From the IMG/VR virus record IMGVR_UViG_3300035199_000514, positions 1 to 41,153 of that record: 41,153 bases of DNA. One strand, given 5' to 3'. A program made the position numbers and the translations under genes. This DNA comes from a virus. The notes under the pieces were generated by a model. That model was not told the origin of the DNA. It saw only the letters and a program-made list of their open reading frames with translations, and made no database searches. Positions 1 through 15,522 of the stretch are shown piece by piece; position 1 is the first letter of the stretch; each line of letters opens with the position of its first letter.

Positions 1-163
1 GGGTCGAATAAACTTCGCCTTCCCACAACACATGGGCGTGAGTAACAACAGTCCACCCATCTTTATCTAATGCGGTTGCATAGGTATCATCCTCAATAAA
101 AATGCCAGTGATGGGTTTTTCATTCGGGCCAAAACTTACTTTTACCAGATCACCCAGCTTCAC
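1..163 (-). CDS. GDLV-family small protein, partial (array member)
   Basis: The 3' end lies beyond the window. The first 54 codons are visible, and the start is GTG at 163-161. A GGAGGT ribosome site at 169-174 lies inside the upstream gene's last codons. The protein opens K-L-G-D-L-V-K-V, has a G-I-F-I-E strand after about 20 residues, and a V-L-W-E-G segment near the edge. This matches the pattern of its neighbours: GDLV opening, GIVVE strand, VxWxDG strand. The start overlaps the upstream gene by 14 bases. Function is unknown. The pattern suggests a small SH3-like beta barrel, which is an inference. It shows that the array continues past the left edge. Confidence 0.75.
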   Translation of the reverse strand, partial: MKLGDLVKVSFGPNEKPITGIFIEDDTYATALDKDGWTVVTHAHVLWEGEVYST

Positions 164-308
164 TCACCACCTCCAGCGAGCGATAGCCCACGTCCTGAAT
201 GGTTCCGCACGCCCATCTGACCATGACATAATGAAATCCAAGTTCAATGACAACTCCCAGCGTATCCCACGGATCACCCTTCGTCTTTACCAGATCACCC
301 AGCTTCAT
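150..308 (-). CDS. GDLV-family small protein (array member)
   Basis: A 52-residue protein opening M-K-L-G-D-L-V-K and ending L-E-V-V-S-E-A-G. The middle holds T-L-G-V-V-I-E-L-G and V-M-V-R-W-A-C-G, which are the two internal beta strands shared by the family. GGGAG precedes the ATG and lies inside the upstream gene. Both ends overlap neighbouring paralogues by 14 bases, so translation is very probably coupled. The gene stands on its family pattern and junctions. Function is unknown. Confidence 0.8.
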   Translation of the reverse strand: MKLGDLVKTKGDPWDTLGVVIELGFHYVMVRWACGTIQDVGYRSLEVVSEAG

Positions 309-483
309 TTACCAACTCCCAATCATCGGCGCGGAGCCAGCCCACAGATTCTCCATAGGCAAGCACCTTTATCCAGTTGATTCGTGTCTCTGTTACGATA
401 TGCACGCTGCCGTTTTTGAAGATAACCGCCGTAGGTAGAGCGCGTTTTGTGTGTATCTTTCTAACCAAGTCACCGACTTTCAT
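295..483 (-). CDS. GDLV-family small protein (array member)
   Basis: A 62-residue protein opening M-K-V-G-D-L-V-R-K and ending D-D-W-E-L-V-N-E-A-G. The frame stays open upstream, but the start is placed at 483 because GGAGGT sits five bases before this ATG and the GDLV motif begins here, as in the neighbours. The central segment (A-V-I-F-K-N-G) differs from other members while the two ends are conserved. It overlaps each flanking paralogue by 14 bases. Function is unknown. Confidence 0.82.
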   Translation of the reverse strand: MKVGDLVRKIHTKRALPTAVIFKNGSVHIVTETRINWIKVLAYGESVGWLRADDWELVNEAG

Positions 484-676
484 TGATGACCTCCAGATCA
501 TAACACCCGCGAGTTGCGATTTGTTGAGTAGCAAAAAAGTATACCTCGCACACCTTTTTACCCGTGGTCCCATCCGGCTTCGACCGGTTGACACCCCAAC
601 GAGGCTCCGTGGCGATGATACCCATGTTTCCCTGTCCTCGGCTATATCTTATTTTCACCAGATCGCCTATTTTCAT
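470..676 (-). CDS. GDLV-family small protein (array member)
   Basis: A 68-residue protein opening M-K-I-G-D-L-V-K-I and ending Y-D-L-E-V-I-N-E-S-R. It has a G-I-I-A-T strand and a V-C-E-V-Y-F segment. GAGGTGATAA precedes the ATG. Its second and third residues are encoded ATA GGC rather than GTC GGT, which removes the stop codon that the upstream gene would otherwise use, so the upstream gene runs on for 35 bases of overlap. Its own end overlaps the next gene by the usual 14 bases. Function is unknown. Confidence 0.82.
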   Translation of the reverse strand: MKIGDLVKIRYSRGQGNMGIIATEPRWGVNRSKPDGTTGKKVCEVYFFATQQIATRGCYDLEVINESR

Positions 677-857
677 TTATCACCTCGATGTATCCAACCG
701 GATACCACTTAGCCTGTCCGTGTTCCAAAATCTTAATCAAGTGCATGCCGTTACGATGCATTTCGGGAGTGCAAATCGCCAGCACAATGCTGATGTAGCC
801 TTCGCCGGGTTTTGGGCGCGTGTTGTATGACACTCTGACCAGATCACCGACCTTCAC
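642..857 (-). CDS. GDLV-family small protein with extended C-terminus
   Basis: A 71-residue protein starting with GTG at 857 and opening K-V-G-D-L-V-R-V. After the family ending Y-I-E-V-I-N-E-N-R it continues R-S-G-E-N-K-I. The extra residues arise because the next gene's Gly codon is GGC, so the TGA normally formed by GGT-GA is absent and reading continues to the next stop. The tail is therefore a by-product of a wobble change in the neighbour, or has been tolerated. It overlaps the upstream gene by 14 bases and the downstream gene by 35. Function is unknown. Confidence 0.8.
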   Translation of the reverse strand: MKVGDLVRVSYNTRPKPGEGYISIVLAICTPEMHRNGMHLIKILEHGQAKWYPVGYIEVINENRRSGENKI

Positions 858-1017
858 TAATCAACCTCAAAAACTTTATCCACTCAAACGATTCGTCGCC
901 GTCAAACCACTTGACACGGCATGCTGGTCCGTTATTCGCGTCTGCGTGCGAACCCACTTCCACAACAATCCCCCGAATAAAATGATGGGGGGATTCTACC
1001 ATGTCACCGACTTTCAT
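844..1017 (-). CDS. GDLV-family small protein (array member)
   Basis: A 57-residue protein opening M-K-V-G-D-M-V-E-S and ending L-R-L-I-S-E-G-R. It is one of the clearest members: R-G-I-V-V-E-V-G for the second strand and C-R-V-K-W-F-D-G-D for the third. The frame is open for 60 codons upstream, but that stretch is out of register with the 1004-1228 gene and has no ribosome site. GGAGGTCATCA directly precedes the ATG at 1017. There are 14-base overlaps at both ends. Function is unknown. Confidence 0.83.
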   Translation of the reverse strand: MKVGDMVESPHHFIRGIVVEVGSHADANNGPACRVKWFDGDESFEWIKFLRLISEGR

Positions 1018-1228
1018 TGATGACCTCCAAATCGTGAGCGAGAAACGGGCGAGTTCCTCCATCTCCGAAAAGTTTAACGCAGGGGCGAAACTTGCGGTGC
1101 ATACCGCCGAGATGATAGGCTGGCACCACGATCCCCATCGTACCAGCGGGTATAATATGTTGATCCCCTCCGGGTGCAGTTCCGCGAATATCATCACCTT
1201 TCAATCTTACCAAGTCACCTACTTTCAT
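1004..1228 (-). CDS. GDLV-family small protein (array member)
   Basis: A 74-residue protein, one of the longest in the array, opening M-K-V-G-D-L-V-R-L-K and ending H-D-L-E-V-I-N-E-S-R. The second strand reads M-G-I-V-V-P-A-Y and the third P-C-V-K-L-F-G-D-G-G. The ribosome site is the weaker GGTGG, shared with the end of the upstream gene. It overlaps both neighbours by 14 bases. Function is unknown. Confidence 0.82.
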   Translation of the reverse strand: MKVGDLVRLKGDDIRGTAPGGDQHIIPAGTMGIVVPAYHLGGMHRKFRPCVKLFGDGGTRPFLAHDLEVINESR

Positions 1229-1379
1229 TTATCACCACCAAAAAATCACCAGAGATCATCGCCTTTTGACCACTGACCATCAGAATATCGAAAATGTTAT
1301 GCCCTCGCGTACTCAGAATGACAGCGGGGCCACTCAAAGCACGACATTCAGACACTTGAACCAAGTCACCGACTTTCAT
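1215..1379 (-). CDS. GDLV-family small protein (array member)
   Basis: A 54-residue protein opening M-K-V-G-D-L-V-Q-V and ending F-L-V-V-I-N-E-S-R. The core is poorly conserved (A-V-I-L-S-T-R-G-H-N) and lacks the usual W-x-D-G, yet both ends match the family. It is supported by the same 14-base overlaps at each side and by GGTGG upstream of the ATG. Function is unknown. Confidence 0.78.
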   Translation of the reverse strand: MKVGDLVQVSECRALSGPAVILSTRGHNIFDILMVSGQKAMISGDFLVVINESR

Positions 1380-1560
1380 TTATCACCACCAATCTTTGAG
1401 TGCCGACCCACCAAGTCTCGCCGTCGTTAAACAGCACTTGTGCTGACTCTGTGTTGTGTCCTGTCTTGGACATTTTAACCACCAAACCAAGTTCTGAGCT
1501 ATACCGATCCATGTCGTCGTTCAAAATACTTTCAAATCTTACCAAGTCGCCAATCTTCAT
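1366..1560 (-). CDS. GDLV-family small protein, first gene after promoter
   Basis: A 64-residue protein opening M-K-I-G-D-L-V-R-F-E and ending R-L-V-V-I-N-E-S-R. It has L-G-L-V-V-K-M and A-Q-V-L-F-N-D-G-E-T-W-W, matching the family's second and third strands. The frame continues upstream through the promoter, so the start is placed at the motif Met at 1560. This start has no Shine-Dalgarno sequence: the promoter -10 box ends seven bases before it, so the mRNA may begin at the ATG itself. It heads the downstream run of eight array genes in this window. Function is unknown. Confidence 0.8.
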   Translation of the reverse strand: MKIGDLVRFESILNDDMDRYSSELGLVVKMSKTGHNTESAQVLFNDGETWWVGTQRLVVINESR

Positions 1561-1577
1561 ACATATAATATAGCACC
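1559..1577 (-). repeat. 19-bp promoter repeat, copy 1
   Basis: A 19-base segment containing the -10 box and the bases just before it is identical at 1559-1577 and 3314-3332. In both places it belongs to a sigma-70-like promoter in front of a small-protein gene. This suggests that the promoter was copied along with the array. Confidence 0.75.
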
Positions 1578-1595
1578 CAAACAGGCGCAAGTCAA
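1567..1595 (-). promoter_or_regulatory. sigma-70-like promoter
   Basis: On the minus strand the -35 box is TTGACT (1590-1595), the spacer is 17 bases, and the -10 box is TATATT (1567-1572) preceded by an extended-type TGC. The expected transcription start, about seven bases past the -10, falls on the A of the start codon at 1560, implying a leaderless message. It lies in the short gap between genes 1627-1833 and 1366-1560. Confidence 0.75.
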
Positions 1596-1626
1596 CCTCT
1601 AAGTTGTCAAGTGTTTGTTGGGTGCG

Positions 1627-1833
1627 TTAAACTTTTGTCGTCTTCCCGCTTGGGCTAACAACTTTTAGTGCAGTTCGTGACCACCACCCGACCGGATGGT
1701 TCTCGGATGACCACTGAACCTTGCATTCGATTCCCTTAGTCTCCATCACCAACCCAACGCAAGAAATATCGCGCTCCACATCGTAGAGCGCGACAACAAG
1801 ATCGCCGATGGATGGCGCTCCGCTATCTTTCAT
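1627..1833 (-). CDS. GDLV-like small protein
   Basis: A 68-residue protein. Starting at the Met at 1833, it reads M-K-D-S-G-A-P-S-I-G-D-L-V-V-A, so the GDLV motif sits ten residues further in than in the array members. It then has V-G-L-V-M-E-T-K-G and C-K-V-Q-W-S-S-E, the family's second and third strands, and ends K-V-V-S-P-S-G-K-T-T-K-V. GGAG lies seven bases before the chosen ATG. It overlaps the upstream gene by 11 bases. It is the last gene before the 1567-1595 promoter. Function is unknown. Confidence 0.75.
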   Translation of the reverse strand: MKDSGAPSIGDLVVALYDVERDISCVGLVMETKGIECKVQWSSENHPVGWWSRTALKVVSPSGKTTKV

Positions 1834-2044
1834 CCAGCAACTCCAGTTCAACGAGCGGGATGGTTACCACCCTCTCGCTAATCATCACATCGGCCACCGG
1901 CTCAGGATCGATCTTGTTCCAGTCAATCTTGCTACCGAGTTCTGCCGTGCGCCAAATCTTCTTTTCAAAGAGTTTGACGACAACGCCCATCTTGCCTGCA
2001 CCACGCGAGGATTTGAACGCTCTAACCAAATCACCTACTTTCAT
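1823..2044 (-). CDS. GDLV-family small protein
   Basis: A 73-residue protein opening M-K-V-G-D-L-V-R-A-F and ending V-E-L-E-L-L-D-E-R. The second strand reads M-G-V-V-V-K-L-F. The middle is diverged (K-I-D-W-N-K-I-D-P-E-P). AAGGAGG precedes the ATG inside the upstream gene, and there is a 14-base overlap there. Function is unknown. Confidence 0.82.
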   Translation of the reverse strand: MKVGDLVRAFKSSRGAGKMGVVVKLFEKKIWRTAELGSKIDWNKIDPEPVADVMISERVVTIPLVELELLDER

Positions 2045-2252
2045 TAAGAAACGCCTCCTTCGTCAAATCTTCTACATAGCCAAGATTAACCAACCGTTGC
2101 CATTCATCTGCCATAAAAGCATCAGGGTGGGGCAGCACCCATTCCACCTTTACCATCGGCCATCCGTTCGTCACTCTCTCATCAACGACAATGCCAAACA
2201 AAATATAGTTGTGGCCTATCGCCTTCCAAACACGCTTATCCATATTGCTCAT
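2031..2252 (-). CDS. diverged GDLV-like small protein
   Basis: A 73-residue protein without the GDLV opening: it begins M-S-N-M-D-K-R-V-W-K. It then has F-G-I-V-V-D-E-R and M-V-K-V-E-W-V, matching the second and third family strands, and ends A-F-L-N-E-S-R, the same ending as the array. The last 14 bases overlap the next gene exactly as in the array. AAAGGAG lies 11 bases before the ATG, and the start overlaps the upstream stop as ATGA. It is probably a diverged relative. Function is unknown. Confidence 0.7.
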   Translation of the reverse strand: MSNMDKRVWKAIGHNYILFGIVVDERVTNGWPMVKVEWVLPHPDAFMADEWQRLVNLGYVEDLTKEAFLNESR

Positions 2253-2784: not shown

Positions 2785-3119
2785 GCTTGAATCTCCACAG
2801 TGTTGCAGTCAAGATTATAACCACGATCTGCCATTCTGTCCCAACTAATCTCGCACCAGTCAGAAAAAATCTTCCAAAGCTGCTCGCTCGTCATTTCTTT
2901 CAGCTTCTCTTGGTCCCACTCAATCGCTTCGGTTTGCTCGCCATCGGTTTCTGCATACGGGTTGCAAGCGTTCATCATCGACAAAGCGGTTTCATCATCT
3001 TCAACATCCAAGAACTCTAATATATCAGAAATGCACGCCAGCGCACAACCTTTCTGTGTCAGGTGTACGCTGCTAAACAACTCGCCTTCGTAGCTTCCCT
3101 GCATAACCCAAACTTTCAT
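2781..3119 (-). CDS. hypothetical protein, tandem paralogue of 2479-2784
   Basis: A 112-residue acidic protein starting at M-K-V-W-V-M-Q-G-S. The frame stays open upstream, but AAGGTGA lies just before the Met at 3119 and that ATG overlaps the upstream stop as ATGA. It shares V-H-L-T-Q-K-G and D-W-C-E-I-S-W-D with its downstream neighbour. Function is unknown. The N-terminal part recalls small phage proteins of the M-K-[IV]-W-V type. Confidence 0.72.
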   Translation of the reverse strand: MKVWVMQGSYEGELFSSVHLTQKGCALACISDILEFLDVEDDETALSMMNACNPYAETDGEQTEAIEWDQEKLKEMTSEQLWKIFSDWCEISWDRMADRGYNLDCNTVEIQA

Positions 3120-3298
3120 GTTATCACCTTCAAATCTACAACTGAACAAAAGCCACTCTTTTTCGTAGCCATCCAGAACACGCGAGCGATCTTGCCCTCC
3201 CCCATCAAACTAATGACAAGCCCGAGGCCGCTGCCCCAAGTTTTGGTGCGACCCTGTATAAAGCCGGTGTTCTCCACAATGCTGCCAACTTCGATCAT
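3116..3298 (-). CDS. GDLV-like small protein, first gene after promoter
   Basis: A 60-residue protein opening M-I-E-V-G-S-I-V-E-N-T-G, a variant of the GDLV motif, with L-G-L-V-I-S-L-M and A-R-V-F-W-M-A strands and the ending V-V-D-L-K-V-I-T. AAAGGAGAG lies six bases before the ATG at 3298, so the open frame further upstream is not used. It is the first gene behind the 3322-3350 promoter. Function is unknown. Confidence 0.75.
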   Translation of the reverse strand: MIEVGSIVENTGFIQGRTKTWGSGLGLVISLMGEGKIARVFWMATKKSGFCSVVDLKVIT

Positions 3299-3332: not shown

Positions 3333-3350
3333 GAAAGCGCCCCAAGTCAA
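3322..3350 (-). promoter_or_regulatory. sigma-70-like promoter
   Basis: Minus strand: TTGACT (3345-3350), 17-base spacer, TATATT (3322-3327), with TGC before the -10 box. The -35 box overlaps the stop codon of gene 3347-3553. It would drive 3116-3298 and the genes down to about 1627. Confidence 0.78.
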
Positions 3351-3553
3351 GTCAAGGAGTTGTCAAGATACTTCAAACAACTTTCTTGAAGATTCTGGTA
3401 TCTGCCGAGACTATACCAGAACACACGGTAGCACGGAAACTCGTATTGATCGTCGGTAAACAAGTCATCTCTCACCACCACACCCTGCAACTTGTCGAAG
3501 GGGTGGACGGTTCCTCTTGCATGCACAACAAGATCACCGGGCTTATACTTCAT
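3347..3553 (-). CDS. GDLV-like small protein
   Basis: A 68-residue protein opening M-K-Y-K-P-G-D-L-V-V-H, with Q-G-V-V-V-R-D-D and Y-R-V-F-W-Y strands and the ending C-L-K-Y-L-D-N-S-L-T. GGAG lies four bases before the ATG, inside the upstream gene, and the overlap is 11 bases. It is a clear member of the same family with two extra residues before the motif. Function is unknown. Confidence 0.78.
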   Translation of the reverse strand: MKYKPGDLVVHARGTVHPFDKLQGVVVRDDLFTDDQYEFPCYRVFWYSLGRYQNLQESCLKYLDNSLT

Positions 3554-3752
3554 ACTTCTCCAGATAACTTATCCATTCTTCTGATATTTGCCCGTCGTGC
3601 CACCGTACCTCAAATCGTCGCGTAGTTGTGCCTTTAGCCTCTACCTCTCGCACAATAATGCCGGGTAGCGACTTGAAGGCATCCGTGTACCTCTCCCACT
3701 TAAATGTGGCAGAGGGGCTCGGAATATACTGAACCAGATCGCCTACACGCAT
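3543..3752 (-). CDS. GDLV-family small protein
   Basis: A 69-residue protein opening M-R-V-G-D-L-V-Q-Y-I, with P-G-I-I-V-R-E-V and F-E-V-R-W-H-D-G-Q strands, ending S-Y-L-E-K-Y-E-V. No strong Shine-Dalgarno sequence is visible, but the start lies 10 bases inside the end of the upstream gene, so re-initiation after that gene is likely. Function is unknown. Confidence 0.8.
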   Translation of the reverse strand: MRVGDLVQYIPSPSATFKWERYTDAFKSLPGIIVREVEAKGTTTRRFEVRWHDGQISEEWISYLEKYEV

Positions 3753-3904
3753 GCCGACTTGTCAAGAATCTCAAGATTAAAAGAGCTGCTGTGGTTGAGC
3801 GAACCACATGCCCAGCGCACCCACACCGCAACTCCATCAATCAGTTGGACGACGCCAACTCCCTTCCTGTCGTGCTTTACAATATCGCCAATGTTAAAAT
3901 CCAT
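3743..3904 (-). CDS. GDLV-like small protein
   Basis: A 53-residue protein opening M-D-F-N-I-G-D-I-V-K-H, with V-G-V-V-Q-L-I-D-G and V-W-V-R-W-A-C-G strands and an N-L-E-I-L-D-K ending. W-A-C-G is also found in the 150-308 protein, linking the two. GGAG lies six bases before the ATG. It follows the tRNA and a small membrane protein in the same transcript. Function is unknown. Confidence 0.78.
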   Translation of the reverse strand: MDFNIGDIVKHDRKGVGVVQLIDGVAVWVRWACGSLNHSSSFNLEILDKSACV

Positions 3905-4141: not shown

Positions 4142-4227
4142 TGGTAGCTGATGCGGGGATCGAACCCGCAAGCCCAAACGGGCGGGAGATTTTGAGTCTC
4201 CTGTGTATACCATTCCACCAATCAGCT
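4142..4227 (-). tRNA. tRNA-Leu (anticodon CAA)
   Basis: An 86-base class II tRNA. The acceptor stem (4221-4227 with 4146-4152) pairs at all seven positions. The discriminator A is followed by an encoded CCA (4142-4144). The anticodon stem is GGAGA/TCTCC, and the loop carries CAA at 4192-4194, reading UUG. A long variable arm (CCGCCCGTTTGGGC) and a GCGGG/CCCGC T-arm with TTCGATC are present, as expected for leucine. The promoter at 4236-4264 would start the transcript about two bases before the mature 5' end. Confidence 0.95.
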
Positions 4228-14763: not shown

Positions 14764-15522
14764 CTACGCAAATGGTGGCGTCTTTAATAGTTCTGCTGTG
14801 TCTTGCCACGTTTTGACTTCGTAGGCCGATCCGTTCGGGTGCTGACGGAGCGCCGTGGCTATCGCGTGATCGTTTCCCGGGAAAGCCACTTTATCGCCTA
14901 CGAATACAATCTTATTGTGTTCTAGTGCTTGTTCAAAATGGCGCTCCACCACTTGGGATTTATCATTGCCAATGTTGAAAATATCTATGCTGACGGCGCC
15001 CCCGATCGCAAAGTCTAGTTTAGGATATACATCCTTTAATCTCTCTACGATAGCGTACCTCTCGCACTCAACAGCGTCATAATCTGCGTATCTTGCGCGC
15101 TGTTCGGGAGAGGCATTTCTCCCGACGATCGAAAAGTTTACCATCCCAACTCGCTCTTCGTGATGGTGGCCGGTTTTCTCTGGGTATTCCGATTTTTTAA
15201 CTTCGGTCTCGAGAGTTTTATAAAAGCCCCGCGGGGATTTAAATTTATTTTCATAAATTATTTCCCATTCGTTGAAGCCCGTCGGATTTACCAATTCTCG
15301 TTTCTGGAGAAAGGAATTCCCCATACACGCAAAAACCCCTTCGCACTTGTTGGTGATAGAGTCTCCGAGTTGTCCGATAATCCGCACAAATGAGCCTCCC
15401 GAAATTATATACACTTCTTTTTCATTCATCCATTTTTTAAAAAAGGCTGAGAATGACGTGTCCATGGAGGCTTTCGACGGAGTAAGAGTCCCGTCTACAT
15501 CGAACAAATAAATAATGCCCAC
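14764..15522 (-). CDS. phosphomannomutase-like HAD enzyme
   Basis: A 252-residue protein starting with GTG at 15522 behind GGAG. It carries the HAD signature F-D-V-D-G-T-L-T at residues 7-14, I-S-G-G near 40, M-V-N-F-S-I-V-G-R-N at 127-136, F-A-I-G-G-A-V-S-I-D-I-F at 171-182, and F-V-G-D-K-V-A-F-P-G-N-D-H at 207-219. The last three match the eukaryotic-type phosphomannomutase family (HAD IIB), where they bind the sugar phosphate and Mg. Its length equals that family. It would convert mannose-6-phosphate to mannose-1-phosphate, for surface glycans or nucleotide sugars. It is unusual in a phage. A related HAD phosphatase remains possible. Confidence 0.8.
   Translation of the reverse strand: MGIIYLFDVDGTLTPSKASMDTSFSAFFKKWMNEKEVYIISGGSFVRIIGQLGDSITNKCEGVFACMGNSFLQKRELVNPTGFNEWEIIYENKFKSPRGFYKTLETEVKKSEYPEKTGHHHEERVGMVNFSIVGRNASPEQRARYADYDAVECERYAIVERLKDVYPKLDFAIGGAVSIDIFNIGNDKSQVVERHFEQALEHNKIVFVGDKVAFPGNDHAIATALRQHPNGSAYEVKTWQDTAELLKTPPFA

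Follow-up and report, generated by a model that had tools for sequence, protein, structure and literature searches.

The window analysed here is a complete IMG/VR virus record (IMGVR_UViG_3300035199_000514; 41,153 bases), in which gene boundaries were taken as those of open reading frames (ORFs). Its first 1,560 bases hold nine small genes of 52–74 amino acids (aa), arranged head to tail on the minus strand from position 1560 downwards, the ninth being cut by the record end. The encoded proteins begin with an N-terminus of the MK(V/I/L)GD(L/M)V type, called GDLV below, and consecutive genes overlap, in array order, by 14, 14, 14, 14, 35, 14, 14 and 14 nucleotides (nt). A further 14-nt joint, at 2044/2031, lies downstream of a gene without the N-terminal GDLV motif. 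The original prediction, made from this stretch of sequence, had described nine tandem paralogues of this size with 14-nt overlaps at seven of their eight junctions and at 2031/2044, and we confirmed all of these coordinates and overlaps. The genes are referred to as cassettes and the overlaps as joints, as follows.

1366–1560, minus strand: cassette 1, MKIGDLVRFESILNDD...LVVINESR, 64 aa, probably leaderless, AlphaFold2 (AF2) model an SH3-like barrel
1215–1379, minus strand: cassette 2, 54 aa, NESR ending
1004–1228, minus strand: cassette 3, 74 aa, DLEVINESR ending
844–1017, minus strand: cassette 4, 57 aa, LRLISEGR ending, AF2 model an SH3-like barrel with a predicted local distance difference test score (pLDDT) of 92.6
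642–857, minus strand: cassette 5, 71 aa, GTG start, extends 35 nt into the next gene
470–676, minus strand: cassette 6, 68 aa, precise one-cassette absence in relatives L006 and L085
295–483, minus strand: cassette 7, 62 aa, WELVNEAG ending
150–308, minus strand: cassette 8, 52 aa, missing from the interval between the cassette 7 and cassette 9 orthologues of L085
1–163, minus strand: cassette 9, GTG start, VKLGDLVKVSFGPNEKP..., cut by the record end
1366–1379, minus strand: junction 1, 14-nt stop/start overlap ATGAAAGTCGGTGA
1215–1228, 1004–1017, 844–857, 470–483, 295–308, 150–163 and 2031–2044, minus strand: equivalents of the junction-1 overlap
1023–1028, minus strand: putative Shine–Dalgarno GGAGGT inside the LEV codons of cassette 3
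489–494, minus strand: the same GGAGGT element inside cassette 6
2031–2252, minus strand: gene without a GDLV N-terminus, FLNESR ending, 14-nt overlap with the next start

Six copies of the start module RTGAARRTNGGTGAYNTNGT are present in the window, and none appeared in 100 dinucleotide-preserving shuffles. Four of the eight complete members end exactly in NESR (1366, 1215, 1004 and 470); the other four end in SEGR, NENR(+7), NEAG and SEAG, each set by the next start. At the fifth junction GGC replaces GGT as the Gly4 codon of the downstream gene; the out-of-frame TGA is thereby absent and the overlap runs on to 35 nt.

A neighbouring 212-aa protein identified five relatives, two at ~62% identity (L005 and L006) and three at 24–39%. 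Arrays with the same joint were present in L006, L007 and L009, and absent from the stretch covered in L005 and L008. Two samples of the IMG/VR collection were then used. The first was a scan for the start pattern only, which left Gly4 open and placed no requirement on the sequence upstream, and its counts are among the matches listed; the second was a scan by the joint itself (1033 genes in 190 loci), which is joint-enriched and served only for tests of tails and gene order. The contigs, up to 293 kb long, are metagenomic fragments from a number of lineages that is not known, and related sequences among them are not independent observations. Across as many as 190 related phage loci, family members overlapped most commonly by 14 nt, and in the first sample 4-nt joints were a minority (40, against 174 of 14 nt). 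A mode of 14 nt is unusual, since cellular genomes are reported to contain few overlaps of more than 8 nt (PMC10666635). A longer junction pattern was found in all 20 related records tested and its reverse in none, each genome having a single array orientation.

No cultured relative was found: three family queries gave no tblastn match among 50,697 phage records, a fourth gave weak matches only, in unrelated genes, and the best nucleotide matches of the window to phage records covered the tRNA-Leu gene only. Nine matches in a genome collection were all in metagenome-assembled genomes, which we take as phage contigs binned with bacteria. The earlier reader knew of no description of this arrangement, and none was found in the full-text literature searched, although absence there is no proof of novelty.

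The tail as an out-of-frame reading of the next start

The ending [N/S]-E-[S/G/N/A/C]-[R/G] was borne by 129 genes of the first sample, and in every one a start codon lies exactly 14 nt before the gene end and opens a frame of at least 35 codons. This strict tail occurs in 129 of the 174 members with a 14-nt overlap, compared with none of 122 terminal members and none of 49 members with overlaps of 1 or 4 nt. Members not followed by a paralogue, the case singled out by the original prediction as decisive for its RNA-based explanation, thus lack the ending. Five apparent exceptions in the enlarged set each proved to have a GDLV start, or its remnant, in the DNA.

The residues of the tail follow the codons of the next gene. 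The start codon sets the first residue, ATG giving N (185 cases) and GTG giving S (298), and the codons after it set the rest (AAA GTC gives ESR, CAA GTC gives ASR and AAG GTC gives EGR), so that an MQVGD start produces a NASR tail upstream. In 16 of 164 cases the upstream ORF does not start with GDLV, and some of these are clearly unrelated proteins, yet an E-S-R-like tail is present. Orthologues point the same way: in clusters with both kinds of junction in the enlarged set, the tail was found in 117 of 145 joined members and 4 of 103 others. Orthologues of cassette 7 end in WELVNEAG before MKLGD (the window and L006) and in WELVSETR before VKHGD (L085); for another cassette, NESR occurs only in L094, before a joint, and the other orthologues end in YLTSS, YLTGS or YLTTP.

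Codon choice is constrained at the joint. Gly4 is GGT in 164 of 164 joints, compared with 69 of 127 starts elsewhere (first sample). The Val-3 codon GTT, which would give the upstream protein a Trp tail, was used at 1% of joints, compared with 21% of the other starts of these phages, which means that the base determining the last tail residue is not neutral.

Since the tail follows the next start and the frame relation of the joint, it is a shadow of that start: N/S-E-S/G-R/G is what the first codons of the next gene spell out of frame, and NESR is neither a selected peptide nor the ribosome site. The proposal that the shared C-terminal motif is kept for RNA reasons was accordingly right in that the start codon and MK-V-G-D codons of the next gene produce the tail as a side effect. 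It went too far in including LEVI, a genuine strand of the protein whose codons also contain the ribosome site, and in that the last residue is not fully neutral.

Ribosome sites, gene order and exchange

The sequence GGAGGT precedes the joint at a fixed distance, inside the upstream L-E-V codons. In the first sample the Glu codon at this position was GAG in 118 cases and GAA in 4. By comparison, GAG makes up 40% of the Glu codons elsewhere in these genes, and terminal members use 18 GAG and 15 GAA in the same strand motif. With duplicate contigs removed and resampling by record, the GAG fraction was 0.96 (0.91–1.00). Calculated pairing with the 16S tail averaged −9.8 kcal/mol at joints, −6.2 kcal/mol at non-joined starts of the same phages and −5.3 kcal/mol after shuffling. 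GTG accounted for 47% of the start codons at joints, compared with 12% elsewhere. Usage of Leu6 and codon 8, beyond the overlap, did not differ between joints and other starts of the same phages; an extra constraint on downstream codons past the overlap was considered and dropped, as it disappeared once starts from the same phages were compared.

A LEVI-like final strand is also found in 69 of 122 terminal members (first sample), and in AF2 models the LEVI motif forms the last strand with the tail beyond it. LEVI would therefore be protein strand and ribosome site at once. Judged from these features, the predicted Shine–Dalgarno site for the downstream gene in the LEV codons is strong, and the anatomy of the joint makes translational coupling the most likely arrangement.

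Orthologous cassettes have different neighbours in related phages, attached through the same 14-nt joint. Among pairs whose protein middles are at least 80% identical, successors were unrelated in 26 of 33, and at 60–80% identity in 38 of 41; for larger genes at the same loci the values were 2 of 14 and 43 of 173. At 60% identity or more overall, unrelated successors thus followed 64 of 74 cassettes and 45 of 187 larger genes, orthology of 50-residue proteins being approximate. The copy-number change that the original prediction proposed to look for in related contigs was found as one-cassette differences from L006 and L085. Cassette 6 is extra in the window, exactly between orthologues that are joined directly in both relatives; cassette 8 is flanked in the window by an identical 22-nt direct repeat, TGAAGCTGGGTGATCTGGTAAA.

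The exchange points were mapped, position by position, to the inside of the joint. Where the upstream genes are orthologous and their successors unrelated, excess identity extends to about +15; where the downstream genes are orthologous and their predecessors unrelated, it begins at about +5. The switch therefore falls, on this comparison, within the overlap itself. Joints are not homogenised: their identity was 0.725 within a phage and 0.714 between phages, and adjacent joints were not significantly more alike (p = 0.19). A RecA-like recombinase was encoded in 17 of 20 related records and a tyrosine integrase (PF00589) in none of the 20, which are fragments only, serine recombinases and other enzymes not having been searched for. 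These results lead us to favour recombination between short shared sequences, followed by selection for working joints, over classical reciprocal unequal crossing-over. The idea that the fused junction lets unequal crossing-over add or remove genes therefore holds for its outcome, whole-gene gain and loss being strongly supported by reshuffled neighbours and one-cassette differences, while the route it gives is not the one favoured here.

Putative promoter joints, neighbouring genes and predicted protein fold

Upstream of the array lie further members and candidate promoters.

1567–1595, minus strand: sigma-70-like promoter TTGACT-17-TATATT, ending 6 nt before the cassette 1 ATG
1627–1833, minus strand: family member in terminal position, no start after it and no NESR tail (GKTTKV ending)
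1823–2044, minus strand: GDLV member, LELLDER ending, 11-nt overlap with the next gene (MKDSGAPSIGDLV)
3116–3298, minus strand: GD/GS-type small protein, DLKVIT ending, no tail
3350–3322, minus strand: second sigma-70-like promoter
3347–3553, minus strand: GDLV-type member (MKYKPGDLV), stop codon within TTGACTTGAC, no tail
3543–3752, minus strand: GDLV-type member (MRVGDLVQY), 11-nt overlap with the next gene, no tail
3743–3904, minus strand: GDIV-type member, NLEILDKSACV ending, no tail

Of 77 terminal members in array phages, 18 end in a stop codon that lies within a TTGAC −35 box, and a TATATT or TATACT −10 box often follows at ~17 nt. Such fusions of stop and promoter were seen in L013, L016, L021, L031, L045, L062, L085, L097 and others, and at 3347 in the window. 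Some −10 boxes end 4–6 nt before the ATG that opens a run (window 1560–1600, L006 ~12995, L045 ~11645, several in L052, L097 ~572), so the message would be leaderless; these putative leaderless starts contrast with the otherwise very strong ribosome sites of the family. Across the region promoter-like sites are no more numerous than in shuffles. The sigma-70-like promoters suggest that the host polymerase transcribes these genes, which would fit an early role, and runs seem to consist of genes linked by coupled joints, with promoter joints closing them. A second dual-coding joint, of 11 nt, places a cassette ending in DER, DES or DEG over a MKDSGAPSIGDLV-type start (window 1823–1833, L006, L036, L045 and L097).

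Elsewhere the window encodes a DNA polymerase, a DnaB-like helicase and a ribonucleotide reductase. A phage GroEL occurs together with two ClpP-like proteases in this one contig (17556–19136, 20592–21266 and 27985–28590), which also has a gene for a eukaryotic-type phosphomannomutase of the HAD family (14764–15522). A tRNA-Leu (CAA) gene at 4142–4227, just upstream of the small-gene region, shares ~80–88% identity with tRNAs from large phages of enterobacteria and Aeromonas.

An SH3-like fold had been suggested for the array proteins, and the AF2 models bear this out: two divergent members, cassette 4 and cassette 1 (the latter with a pLDDT of 82.6), were confidently modelled with one shared fold, a five-stranded SH3-like barrel. 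The other outcome that the original prediction had named as fatal to its RNA-based explanation, members of unrelated structure, was thus not seen in this pair. The nearest solved folds were YorP (SPbeta), PetP, ribosomal KOW domains, HspQ and PWWP domains (E 0.001 or weaker), the nearest viral models were gp30.5 and DUF2158 proteins of T4-like phages, also weak matches, and profile similarity to NusG KOW and DNMT3B PWWP was weak. The predicted fold is thus like that of the SH3-like, KOW and PWWP-like barrels, with no named-family match. Nearly all of 71 members had no significant Pfam or PHROG family, the rest being isolated single-member Pfam matches (E 0.0007 or weaker) and one PHROG of unknown function. 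The model of cassette 4 aligned with R67/DfrB dihydrofolate reductase folds with a template modelling (TM) score of ~0.74 in both directions (weak E, 0.05–0.1), and no DfrB chain appeared among profile matches to solved structures. DfrB enzymes are SH3-like and of unknown origin, with phage-borne homologues reported (PMC9835603). All these matches to the models are weak, and they point to no function.

The median ratio of nonsynonymous to synonymous substitution rates (dN/dS) among orthologue pairs was 0.16, and the proteins are therefore maintained under purifying selection. They may, tentatively, form an interchangeable set of small binding proteins that act against the host, or on it, in the early phase of infection; to assign them a counter-defence or other host-directed role would be a guess.

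Interpretation and comparison with known systems

We consider it probable that the window carries a large-tailed-phage array of exchangeable single-gene cassettes, in which 14-nt dual-coding joints are the site of both coupling and exchange. Each cassette would encode one small SH3-like barrel protein. In one frame the joint RTGAARGTNGGTGA spells the downstream start, M-K-V-G-D, and in the neighbouring frame it spells the upstream ending, N/S-E-S/G-R/G-stop, with the putative downstream Shine–Dalgarno site just before the joint in the L-E-V codons of the last upstream beta strand. Ribosomes ending one protein would reinitiate a few codons back on the next. Recombination inside the joint, by a presumed enzyme on a presumed substrate, would insert, delete or replace whole cassettes; because joints are near-identical in sequence and frame relation, stop, ribosome site and start would be kept on exchange. 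A second kind of joint, with the stop codon within a −35 box, would often close a run and open a new transcript. On the more ambitious claim, that the joint is both a coupling element and a universal recombination seam, yielding an integrase-free, integron-like cassette platform without loss of expression, we are evenly divided.

Several points weigh against the array as so described. Coupling is deduced from anatomy, and a strong Shine–Dalgarno site also allows independent initiation. Cellular genomes are dominated by overlaps of −4, −1 and −8, and a 14-nt backstep is longer (PMC10666635). The joints of one phage are hardly more alike than those of different phages, and exact shared runs average 11–14 nt, which is short for RecA-type exchange. 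A Trp tail is avoided, so the last residue is not free.

The alternative that survives best, which we nevertheless regard as unlikely, is that the overlap only saves space and that a strong Shine–Dalgarno site starts each gene uncoupled. Joint ribosome sites are indeed much stronger than those at the family's other starts, with a conserved GAGGT at a fixed, good spacing. Yet GTG starts are fourfold commoner at joints, which is odd for strong independent starts, and the ribosome site and start lie within a translated upstream gene. Compaction alone also does not predict 14, because overlaps of more than 8 nt are rare in prokaryote genomes (PMC10666635). Distinctly less probable is a founder effect, in which a gene was duplicated in tandem overlapping its copy by 14 nt and the joint has been inherited without a role. 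The joint and N-terminus are common to all members, overlaps are hard to lose and joints show no extra homogenisation within phages, all of which a founder would explain. It does not account for constrained synonymous sites at the ribosome site (96% GAG), for joints arising anew with unrelated upstream genes (16 of 164) or for a turnover of neighbours that far outpaces that seen around other genes and has its breakpoints inside the joint.

We give very little credence to a dedicated site-specific recombinase that recognises the joint and moves cassettes as in integrons. Single-gene units in one orientation per genome, with precise boundaries, would suit it, but a tyrosine recombinase was found in none of the 20 fragmentary records (the limits of that search are given above), the joint is itself coding sequence, and where it varies it does so with the genes on either side. 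That the tail is a functional peptide, an interaction or stability signal, is scarcely credible despite its strong conservation in joined members and the avoidance of Trp, and this candidate was rejected because the tail is missing from terminal members, lost by orthologues with another neighbour, present on unrelated proteins and rewritten in step with the next start.

If the array is one of exchangeable cassettes, it bears on how overlapping genes are viewed. Overlaps are usually thought to freeze gene order, since a change in one gene damages the other; here the overlap permits order to change, and any two cassettes fit because the shared bases are the same at every joint. Coupling, if true, would offer a natural route to polycistronic arrays from interchangeable parts. 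It would also explain a conserved C-terminus without protein function, which urges caution in inferring function from phage protein tails. Uncultured large phages appear to hold a large reservoir of fast-shuffled small barrel proteins, which are candidates for host-directed activity.

Integron arrays are promoter-poor runs of exchangeable single-gene cassettes in one orientation, with attC sites and a tyrosine integrase. The phage array resembles them in being poor in promoters and uniform in orientation, in its single-gene units and in an order that differs between relatives. It differs in that no intergenic DNA or attC separates joined cassettes, the joint is coding in both neighbours, the cassettes belong to one protein fold family and no tyrosine integrase was seen in the 20 fragmentary records.

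Termination–reinitiation gene pairs (PMC6728339, PMC10666635) share with the array a stop/start overlap and a Shine–Dalgarno site inside the upstream gene, and by analogy the downstream gene would be expected to depend on upstream translation in both. Those overlaps are mostly of 4, 1 or 8 nt and concern particular gene pairs, whereas the array overlap spans 14 nt and downstream codons 1–5, and the same joint connects any members and unrelated genes. The start-associated sequences (SAS) of cluster K mycobacteriophages are 13-bp elements, GGGATAGGAGCCC, found 3–7 bp before the starts of unrelated genes (PMC3203893). SAS and joint are alike as short repeated elements at the starts of many small phage genes, and a role in initiation has been proposed for SAS; SAS are not stop/start overlaps, and their genes, unlike those of the array, are not one paralogous family. 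The SAS motif is not present at the window junctions, where GGAGGTCATCA or GGTGGTGATAA precedes the ATG instead. Finally, the array recalls the mosaic genomes and conserved boundary sequences of phages, as in modular theory and the mycobacteriophages (PMC3029335), in that exchange occurs at gene borders and is possibly guided by short sequences; its distinguishing feature is that the border is one defined 14-nt dual-coding element, present in many copies per genome.

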